DNA of 64,000 nt from Desulfatitalea sp. BRH_c12 (GTDB lineage Bacteria; Desulfobacterota; Desulfobacteria; Desulfobacterales; Desulfosarcinaceae), in contig LADR01000045.1 of the NCBI GenBank assembly GCA_000961655.1, positions 1 through 64,000 on the forward strand, read 5' to 3'. Of the stretch, positions 27,945 through 30,327 are shown piece after piece. The notes below the pieces were generated by a model. The model was given only the letters and a program-made list of their open reading frames with translations. It had not been told where the DNA came from and did not search any database. Numbering within the stretch: position 1 is the stretch's first letter; every line of letters begins with the position of its first letter. The position numbers were made by a program, and so were the translations under genes.

Positions 27945-27973
27945 TTGACAAATGTGAAGCACAGTGCTCTTAT
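27945..27973 (+). promoter_or_regulatory. Promoter of the aro operon leader
   Basis: A perfect TTGACA (27945-27950), a 17-base spacer and TCTTAT (27968-27973, four of six consensus bases). Transcription would start near 27980, about 15 bases before the leader peptide ATG. Confidence 0.6.
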
Positions 27974-27994
27974 CCGGTCAATCCGAGGTGAAAG

Positions 27995-28072
27995 ATGACG
28001 GCATTCGGCAACATTCAATTTCTGGGTCTCTGGTGGCGCTTCACGCTGTGGCGAGTAGTGCCCCTCGGTTAA
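27995..28072 (+). CDS. Trp- and Phe-rich leader peptide of the aro attenuator
   Basis: The 25-codon frame reads MTAFGNIQFL, then GLWWRFTLWRVVPLG and TAA. It contains three Trp codons, two of them adjacent, and three Phe codons, which is far above chance for 25 codons. A GAGGTG Shine-Dalgarno sits just upstream. It ends 32 bases before a terminator hairpin and 115 bases before the DAHP synthase start. Ribosome stalling at scarce tRNA-Trp (or Phe) should disrupt the terminator, as in trp and phe leaders. Confidence 0.75.
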   Translation: MTAFGNIQFLGLWWRFTLWRVVPLG

Positions 28073-28104
28073 TTGTGCCGGACCTGCCAAAAAAAGGACA
28101 TACG

Positions 28105-28139
28105 GACCGTGGGCATCTGCAGCCTACGGTCTTTTTTTT
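28105..28139 (+). terminator. Attenuator terminator upstream of DAHP synthase
   Basis: GACCGTGGG (28105-28113) pairs with CCTACGGTC (28123-28131) at eight of nine positions around CATCTGCAG and is followed by eight T residues (28132-28139). An A-rich stretch upstream (28089-28095) could take part in a competing fold. It lies between the leader peptide and the structural genes. Confidence 0.8.
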
Positions 28140-28187
28140 GCCGTGGACTGTGCGCTCCGAAGCCGGTAAAACAAAGGAGGAAAGCGC

Positions 28188-29198
28188 ATGTTGGTTGTCA
28201 TGGATAAAAACGCCACCCCTGATCAAGTTGACCGGGTCGTTCGAACGATTGCGTCCAAAGGCTTCGTCGCACGACCGATTCCCGGCGGAGATCGCATTTC
28301 GATCGGCATTCTGAACAATGAAGGCCCGGTGGACCCTGCCCTTTTCATGGGCATGCCCGGGGTCAAGGACGCCATTGCGGTCACGCGCCCTTACAAGTTG
28401 GTGAGCCGCGAAACCAAAGCGGAAGACACTTTGATCCAAGTGGGCAACGTCACGATCGGCAAAGGTCACCTGACGATCATCGGCGGGCCCTGCGCCATCG
28501 AGAGCGAGACCCAGGCCATGACCATTGCCGAGCGGGTCAAACAGGCCGGCGGGAACATTTTCCGCGGAGGCGCCTTCAAGCCGCGCACCTCGCCCTACAG
28601 TTTTCAGGGCATGGAACTGGAAGGGTTGAAAATTCTGGCCAAGGTGCGCGAAACCTTCGGCATGCCGGTGATCACCGAAGTGATCGACCGCGAAACCTTC
28701 GACCAGGTTGAAGCGTATGCCGATATCGTGCAGATCGGCACGCGCAACATGCAGAACTTCAGTTTGCTCAAGCGGGCCGGCCAGAGCCATCGACCCGTGA
28801 TGCTCAAACGCGGCATGTCGGCCACCCTTGAAGAGTGGCTGATGGCGGCCGAGTATATCATGGCGGCGGGCAATCCCAATATTCTGCTTTGCGAGCGCGG
28901 CGTGCGCACTTTCGTGCGCCACAGTCGCAACACCCTGGATCTGTCGGTGGTGCCGGTCATCGCCAAAGAGAGCCACCTGCCCGTGCTGGTTGACCCCAGC
29001 CACGCCGCCGGGGTGCGCGATCAGGTGATCCCGCTGAGCCGGGCCGCTTTGGCGGTCGGCGCCCACGGCCTAATGGTCGAAGTGCATCATGAGCCCGAAA
29101 ACGCGCTGAGCGACGGCGCCCAATCGCTCTATCCGGACCAGTTCACCGATTTGTGCGTATACGCCCGTAAAATTCACGACCTGCTGCGGGAGCACTGA
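28188..29198 (+). CDS. aroF: 3-deoxy-7-phosphoheptulonate (DAHP) synthase
   Basis: The 336-residue protein condenses phosphoenolpyruvate with erythrose 4-phosphate, the first step of aromatic amino acid synthesis. Residues 1-75 are a ferredoxin-like regulatory domain typical of the I-beta type. The TIM barrel follows with GGPCAIES near 104, FRGGAFKPRTSPYSFQG, LKRGMSAT and DPSHAAG (metal and substrate loops). AAGGAGGAAAGCGC precedes the ATG. It leads an operon with aroB and an aminotransferase. The upstream attenuator, rich in Trp and Phe codons, should control it by aromatic amino acid supply. Confidence 0.95.
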   Translation: MLVVMDKNATPDQVDRVVRTIASKGFVARPIPGGDRISIGILNNEGPVDPALFMGMPGVKDAIAVTRPYKLVSRETKAEDTLIQVGNVTIGKGHLTIIGGPCAIESETQAMTIAERVKQAGGNIFRGGAFKPRTSPYSFQGMELEGLKILAKVRETFGMPVITEVIDRETFDQVEAYADIVQIGTRNMQNFSLLKRAGQSHRPVMLKRGMSATLEEWLMAAEYIMAAGNPNILLCERGVRTFVRHSRNTLDLSVVPVIAKESHLPVLVDPSHAAGVRDQVIPLSRAALAVGAHGLMVEVHHEPENALSDGAQSLYPDQFTDLCVYARKIHDLLREH

Positions 29199-29298: not shown

Positions 29299-30327
29299 AT
29301 GTACGAAATCACCGTCAAAGGACAAACCGGACACTCGCGCATCCAGGTCGGTGGACGGCTGGCCGACCTGGCGGGGCATCTGTCCGGCCAGCGGGCCATA
29401 TTCATCACCGACCGCAATGTTGCGGCGCTTTACCAGGACCGCTTTCCCCCTGGAGACGTCATTGTCATCGGCTGCGGTGAAACGAACAAAACCCTGGACA
29501 CACTGGCCGCCATCTACGAGCAGCTCATTGCCCTCGAAGCGGACCGCACAACGGTCATTGTGGGCATTGGTGGCGGCATTGTGGGCGATATCACCGGCTT
29601 TGCCGCCTCTACCTACATGCGCGGCCTGCGCTTCGGCTTTGTGGCCAGCTCGCTGCTGGCCCAGGTGGACGCCACTGTCGGGGGCAAAAACGGCGTCAAT
29701 TTTAAAGGCTACAAGAACATGGTGGGGGTGTTCAACCAACCCGCGTTCGTCATCGCCGACATCGACCTGCTTACCACCTTGCCGCGCGCAGAAATCGCCT
29801 GCGGAGTGGCGGAGATCGTCAAACACGCCTGCATCGCGGATGCCGCCTACTTCGAGTATATCGAAGCGCACTGTGACGGCATCGCCGCCCTGGACCCGGC
29901 CGTGATGCTGCACCTGGTTCACCGCTCGGTGGTCATCAAGGCCGGCGTGGTCAATCAGGATGAACGCGAGGCCGGTGAGCGGCGCAAGCTCAACTTCGGA
30001 CATACTCTGGGCCATGCCTTCGAAAAGACCCTGGGCATCTCCCACGGCGCGGCGGTAAGCGCCGGCATGCTGCTGGCGGCCGAATTTTCCATGCACAAAG
30101 GGCTGCTGAGCGCCAACGCGTTCAACCGGCTGCGCGCCTTGCTGGAACGGCTCGGTCTGCCGGTGGCGTTGGCGTTCGATCGCACGGAAGTCTTCAATGC
30201 ATTGAAAAAAGACAAAAAGCGTCAGCAGCAAGAAATCCATTTCGTGTTGCTCGAAAAAATCGGGCAAGCGACTGTGGCCTCGGTCTCATTGGAAGAAGTG
30301 GCCCGCTGGCTCATGCAGCGTCCGTAA
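29299..30327 (+). CDS. aroB: 3-dehydroquinate synthase
   Basis: The 342-residue protein converts DAHP to 3-dehydroquinate, the second shikimate step, using NAD and a divalent metal. Recognisable elements are GGGIVGDITGFAAS (NAD loop), TYMRGLRF, LLAQVDATVGGKNGVN, EIVKHACI and the metal-binding His motif NFGHTLGHA with a later SHGAAVSAGM. Length is normal. ATG 29299 follows AGGAAG. It lies 100 bases after the DAHP synthase gene on the same strand. Confidence 0.95.
   Translation: MYEITVKGQTGHSRIQVGGRLADLAGHLSGQRAIFITDRNVAALYQDRFPPGDVIVIGCGETNKTLDTLAAIYEQLIALEADRTTVIVGIGGGIVGDITGFAASTYMRGLRFGFVASSLLAQVDATVGGKNGVNFKGYKNMVGVFNQPAFVIADIDLLTTLPRAEIACGVAEIVKHACIADAAYFEYIEAHCDGIAALDPAVMLHLVHRSVVIKAGVVNQDEREAGERRKLNFGHTLGHAFEKTLGISHGAAVSAGMLLAAEFSMHKGLLSANAFNRLRALLERLGLPVALAFDRTEVFNALKKDKKRQQQEIHFVLLEKIGQATVASVSLEEVARWLMQRP

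Follow-up and report, generated by a model that had tools for sequence, protein, structure and literature searches.

Parts of a probable attenuator upstream of aroF-aroB

The window, by which we mean the whole stretch of 64,000 nucleotides that was analysed, encodes on its forward strand a type I-beta DAHP synthase with a ferredoxin-like N-terminal domain (aroF, 28188-29198; NF006421, TIGR01361, PF00793 and PF18152), preceded by the Shine-Dalgarno sequence GGAGG (28176-28180). It is followed on the same strand by aroB, encoding 3-dehydroquinate synthase (29299-30327, TIGR01357 above cut-off). The two genes adjoin each other in nine out of nine aroF loci of the genus, and aroB is probably co-transcribed with aroF.

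The region upstream of aroF, likewise on the plus strand, holds a promoter, a short open reading frame and a terminator, in this order. The promoter, read by eye, consists of a -35 element TTGACA (27945-27950), a 17-nt spacer and an extended -10 element TGC-TCTTAT (TCTTAT at 27968-27973), from which transcription would presumably start. A consensus promoter scanner called no promoter at the leader because it requires an A at the second position of the -10 element. By eye, TTGACA and a 17-nt spacer followed by TCTTAT, TTTTAT or TCATAT were recognized at all eight loci of the genus that have the leader, and at L011. A leader peptide of 25 codons, MTAFGNIQFLGLWWRFTLWRVVPLG, is encoded at 27995-28072 (ATG at 27995, stop codon at 28070-28072) and is presumably translated from the Shine-Dalgarno sequence GAGGTG (27985-27990), 4 nt 5′ of the ATG; the assignment draws on sequence, fold and conservation. 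It contains the tandem pair Trp13-Trp14 (28031-28036), a further Trp19 (28049-28051) and three phenylalanines (Phe4, Phe9 and Phe16). The intrinsic terminator follows at 28104-28139, with a stem of 28104-28114 and 28122-28132, a loop of 7 nt and a T8 tail (28132-28139).

A sequence-only reading of this DNA had already described this arrangement, and every part was found where it had been placed, including the tandem Trp and the three Trp and three Phe codons in all. The T8 tail of the terminator was confirmed as well, whereas the stem had been given as 8 of 9 base pairs and in fact comprises 11 pairs including two G-U pairs, which is better than claimed. When both strands of the 64 kb were searched for Trp-rich ORFs (ATG, ribosome-binding site, at least three Trp in nine codons), two were found, and only the one upstream of aroF is followed by a terminator.

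Competing folds and modelled ribosome stalling

The fold of the naked leader RNA favours the terminator together with a protector (1:2) hairpin at 28035-28062, in which GGCGCU (28035-28040) pairs with AGUGCC (28057-28062); this hairpin is predicted for a leader free of ribosomes. Pairing of segment 2, the predicted antiterminator strand in the last part of the leader ORF (28058-28070), with 28105-28116 in the 5′ arm of the terminator (segment 3) would give a duplex of about -18 kcal/mol that competes with a terminator hairpin of about -19 to -20 kcal/mol. For a stall scan, a ribosome footprint was moved codon by codon along the leader and the probability of the antiterminator was computed. With the A-site at codons 11-18 this probability was 0.95-0.97, and Trp13 and Trp14 therefore lie within the effective range. 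It was 0.49 at Trp19, 0.00 at the stop codon and 0.01 for naked RNA. Upstream, the control region has no sharp limit: codons 7, 8 and 10 gave 0.65-0.82. As a control, the same method was run on E. coli trpL; codons 8-12, with Trp10 and Trp11 among them, scored 0.94 and the stop codon 0.36. A mutually exclusive pairing, which the sequence-only reading had proposed to look for, is thus present and is freed in silico by stalls at Trp13 and Trp14. At equilibrium and with segment 4 present, stalls at Trp14 (0.58) or later favour the full terminator over the antiterminator, and the model therefore requires co-transcriptional kinetics. In the accepted E. coli scheme, antitermination is described as being decided during RNA synthesis (PMC1183508).

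Statistics on the structures themselves were less informative. The fold energy of the leader region is unremarkable (z -1.43) and was dropped as evidence for an attenuator, as 17 of 200 shuffles were equally good. In strength of the antiterminator the window ranked 34/300 against shuffles, and a narrower segment 7/200. Among 29 hand-chosen leaders, eight fell below 5% (mean z -1.2); the combined Fisher p of 3e-7 comes from relatives that are not independent and is weakly informative, and the hairpin picker put the terminator at the wrong place in several distant loci of this set. The helices were then aligned over nine sequences, namely the eight genus loci and L011. In this alignment the antiterminator helix had 84.7% of cells paired versus at most 57.1% in slid controls, and the terminator helix 92.9% versus at most 53.5%. 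The same alignment showed neither a pairing excess over column shuffles (48/500 as high for the antiterminator, 500/500 for the terminator) nor compensatory changes on both sides of either helix, because the arms are nearly invariant. Such near-invariance is expected of a segment with two alternative pairing partners. The structural support for an attenuator is real but limited.

Conservation of the Trp leader

Conserved Trp codons, and not fold energy, carry the case for the attenuator, and it is conservation that decides. Of 60 genomes covered by a first search, the window's own included, 57 had a match resembling DAHP synthase; the upstream regions of 38 aroF loci were read. A class-wide sample contained aroF in 82 of 147 genomes (E <= 1e-120), all of them in the order of the window, and added 63 upstream regions. 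These counts include L188, L191 and L206, each with less than 120 nt upstream, while L142, L143, L174-L181, L182, L183 and G148, whose gene is cut at the contig start, are outside the analysed rows. A region was counted as carrying a Trp leader if an ORF of 12-45 codons had two or more Trp in a stretch of four codons and was followed by a hairpin with a T-run; dinucleotide shuffles served as controls.

Under this rule 72 of the 101 aroF upstream regions carried a Trp leader compared to 12 of 505 shuffles (28/38 relatives with 7/190 shuffles, 44/63 further loci with 5/315 shuffles). With a stricter threshold of at least three Trp in four codons the numbers were 43/101 (14/38 and 29/63) versus 0/505. 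The remaining 29 loci had no leader and terminator detectable by the rule, three of them being clipped at contig ends. L007, a locus of the same genus with a clearly homologous leader, fails the rule because its two Trp are six codons apart. The tandem pair is split in three of the eight genus leaders (L005-L007), and Trp is present in all eight. The earlier reading had proposed aligning the leader in relatives, and its Trp codons do recur across the order. Of the features of a leader-peptide attenuator, an ORF with clustered codons, an intrinsic terminator, an antiterminator freed in silico by stalling and conserved regulatory codons are found at this locus.

Several loci depart from the common arrangement. 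In the same genus, aroF of G007 (L009) lacks a leader and follows a GTACTC-type repeat, and G001 and G004 showed only fusion-type or weaker matches, with no aroF under the stricter cut-off (the G004 assembly is 86% complete). L020 has an aroF without leader, with trpE on the same contig and strand; its aroF is preceded by what we take, from sequence, to be the end of trpF. A decayed leader with one Trp left was seen by eye at L035. By eye, the promoter and a second hairpin are kept at L012 (aroF) and at L161, L163 and L172 (trpE), where the leader and the first hairpin are absent; this looks like a clean deletion, which could be biological or an assembly effect. Two successive hairpins follow the Trp leader at the aroF loci L021, L029, L030, L032, L036 and L038, by eye also at L010, L014-L016 and L019, and likewise at the trpE loci L158-L160 and L162. 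In several of these double-hairpin loci only the second hairpin has a good T-run, and they may represent tandem or differently wired attenuators. On named genome contigs outside the order (80 loci) no convincing Trp leader was found. Nine of these loci had at least three Trp in nine codons, five of which (L044 and L046-L049) are from Desulfobacterales; the Trp clusters at L079, L087, L105 and L123 look like chance.

Probable attenuation by ribosome stalling and its alternatives

The reading that we hold with high confidence is that aroF-aroB is controlled by a ribosome-mediated transcription attenuator responding to charged tRNA-Trp; peptide-mediated attenuation, as proposed before from the letters, is strongly supported by the conserved leader with its Trp codons and by the competing fold. 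Where Trp is ample, a ribosome would pass Trp13-Trp14, reach the stop codon and cover segment 2, so that segments 3 and 4 would form the terminator and transcription would stop near 28139. Where tRNA-Trp is scarce, the ribosome would stall at the tandem Trp pair of segment 1 and leave segment 2 free to pair with segment 3 ahead of the synthesis of segment 4. This pairing would block the terminator, and aroF-aroB would be transcribed. Leader RNA that is not translated would adopt the 1:2 hairpin and the terminator and keep the operon off. Very probably, then, a shortage of Trp turns aroF on through this switch of leader and terminator.

A chance or leftover arrangement, with an untranslated Trp-rich ORF and a hairpin that serves to end a different transcript, would fit the ordinary fold energy (17/200 shuffles). 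It is very improbable given that short ORFs with Trp clusters and a terminator behind them occur in 72/101 loci versus 12/505 shuffles, that promoter, Shine-Dalgarno sequence and ORF are correctly ordered, and that the 64 kb hold one such site only. Even less credit is due to a ligand-binding RNA (a riboswitch, a T-box or a protein-bound terminator) acting in place of ribosome stalling. The long conserved GGACCGTGGGC arm could be expected of such an element, whereas the window had no Rfam match at gathering score, with E up to 5 allowed, the leader matched no more than a miRNA at chance level (13 bits, E 2.5), and it is the Trp codons that recur in distant leaders. The T-box (RF00230) gave no match in the window, the leader or the genome, in a genome search that recovered the control genomes; TrpR was not found in the genome by a search that likewise recovered its controls. 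The trp leader family RF00513, which needs at least 41 bits, was detected neither in the leader, with E as high as 5, nor in the genome (150 of 470 first-look candidates scored), while the E. coli positive control reached 93 bits. Filing the leader under RF00513 was rejected because Rfam gave nothing relevant.

A Trp rather than a mixed Trp/Phe leader

The sequence-only reading had proposed control by Trp and Phe together. In such a mixed sensor the leader would answer Phe as well as Trp via Phe16, perhaps also Phe9, and either amino acid would control the common pathway. Phe16 does lie inside the modelled control region (0.97 in the stall scan), with Phe9 at 0.39 and Phe4 outside it at 0.07, and it is retained in six of the eight genus leaders. 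Phe-dense leader ORFs with a terminator also exceed shuffles, as the two-residue rule for Phe applied to 29/101 loci (11/38 and 18/63) versus 32/505 shuffles (14/190 and 18/315), which is a mild enrichment; for Tyr the numbers were 4/38 and 9/63 versus 1/190 and 8/315. Against these stand the replacement of Phe16 by Tyr in L004 and its absence in L008, the 14 of 72 leaders without any Phe, and the separate Phe leader of the second DAHP synthase type, present in 17 of 20 loci read (see below). Nor does the control region hold a conserved Phe cluster of the pheA, pheST or aroR type, as Phe16 alone lies well inside. With Phe only mildly enriched, and with its position occupied by Tyr or lost in two of eight genus leaders, we therefore regard the element as a Trp attenuator and joint sensing of Phe as unlikely. 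The Trp half of the earlier proposal is borne out by the 72 of 101 loci; its Phe half is not supported, given the loss of Phe16 in two of eight leaders and the Phe leader elsewhere. A secondary response to Phe starvation via Phe16 may occur in this species.

A probable Trp regulon with trpE

The Trp leader is shared with trpE. In the same genome trpE has a leader ending in ..NWWWRLWCIRACGALPIV, and the GGACCGTGGGC arm of the aroF terminator returns in the terminator of trpE. Among relatives, 29 of 30 trpE loci with sequence were evaluated (L155, with a partial gene, was left out), and the Trp rule applied to 26 of these 29, compared to 3 of 145 shuffles. Within the flanks searched, trpE lies head to head with aroF in 4 of 30 aroF loci (L011, L023, L025 and L029). 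At L011:2503-3156 a single intergenic region holds both outward Trp leaders and both GACCGTGGGC hairpins with near-identical terminator arms. From their sequences this suggests an inverted duplication of the attenuator at L011, and the aroF and trpE attenuators appear to be of common origin. The genome pattern TGGTGG-N{45,75}-CGTGGGC proved too loose and was rejected, with 30 matches, both true leaders included, versus 14 in the backward control.

Comparison with described systems

The E. coli trp leader has a protector hairpin. The aroF leader resembles E. coli trpL in this hairpin, in tandem Trp codons followed by Arg, in an antiterminator and a terminator that share one arm, and in the stall profile computed for both in the same way. 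The two differ in what they control, a DAHP synthase and a dehydroquinate synthase here and trpEDCBA there, in leader length (25 versus 14 codons) and in the position of segment 2, here at the ORF end and stop codon; the covariance model of trpL is unmatched here.

For Corynebacterium glutamicum, a DAHP synthase operon under leader-peptide attenuation is described, in which the aroR leader before aroF has Phe-Tyr-Phe codons and responds to Phe (PMC11802643, citing Neshat et al. 2014); there the amino acid is Phe, here it is Trp. A table of predicted RNA elements in Shewanella lists 'possible transcription termination' for aroH, the Trp-sensitive DAHP synthase, and an 'attenuator sensing tyr-tRNA' for aroF, the Tyr-sensitive one, with reference to older E. 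coli work (PMC2659441); for aroF of E. coli, attenuation has been hypothesised. These are gamma-proteobacterial predictions for other DAHP synthases, and the table gives no Trp leader peptide for aroH. The uORFC-13-1 motif before aroF of Acholeplasma is a candidate uORF-terminator with 24 sequences from Acholeplasma and the environment (PMC8632094); it too would control a DAHP synthase by uORF and terminator, and unlike the present leader it is Phe-based and predicted only. In Simkania a DAHP synthase (AroA I-beta) is part of the trp operon, for which trpR autoregulation was proposed (PMC3937554); the enzyme is similarly tied to the Trp branch, whereas here it has its own attenuator. In Actinobacteria, Trp leaders are reported before trp operons and trpS (PMC1262725). 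Among the matches listed in a literature search that left most subscription journals outside its coverage, none described a Trp leader peptide before a DAHP synthase or an attenuator in Desulfobacterota. The mechanism is classical and already known; its lineage and its isozyme-by-isozyme use were not found in the literature searched. Classical Trp attenuation, familiar from the trp operon, would also reach the first enzyme of the shikimate pathway, here in a group of environmental anaerobes (sulfate reducers).

Phe and Tyr leaders of other DAHP synthases

The other DAHP synthase of the genome is fused to prephenate dehydratase and ACT domains. About 330 nt 5′ of its gene lies a Phe-rich leader, MTIFNFICGCFFYFRSIHPAA, at L039:2314-2379 (G000:C66), followed by hairpins; in the fold of its own locus its Phe codons sit in a hairpin of their own. 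Reading 20 loci by eye, we found a leader with a core of the form GCFFFSFRSxHP in 17. The three exceptions are L041, whose Phe-rich leader is of another kind, L140, where no leader was seen in the 400 nt examined, and L141, a stand-alone isozyme preceded by a Tyr leader. The Phe statistic at fusion-type loci is weak (18/20 versus 445/1200 shuffles), and the recurring peptide core argues better for a Phe leader than the shuffles do. The third, stand-alone DAHP synthase isozyme was found in 4 of 116 genomes of the order (E <= 1e-125). In four out of four loci (L247-L250) it has a Tyr-rich leader about 110-380 nt 5′ of the gene with hairpins behind it, and the motifs are YYFYY, FFYYYYYWY, FYFYYWY and YYYW.

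The lineage seems to give different DAHP synthase copies their own amino-acid sensor, and we find this more interesting than the aroF attenuator itself. On balance we favour a scheme in which the order splits its supply of aromatic precursors among DAHP synthase isozymes, each operon with a branch-specific leader-peptide attenuator, namely Trp for aroF-aroB, Phe for the fusion and, in some members, Tyr for the stand-alone isozyme. The set of leader peptides would thus replace the TrpR/TyrR repression and isozyme feedback of E. coli, which suggests a way to split flux to three end products without the E. coli repressors. Such a scheme is readable from sequence and testable codon by codon, and the leader alone could predict which branch a DAHP synthase copy serves. 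Outside this phylum, a DAHP synthase locus of Calditrichota (L111) carries MASTERLNHFFGFYFGYYYWTQ and a hairpin with a T-run about 100-170 nt 5′ of the match, possibly a Tyr/Phe leader in another phylum.
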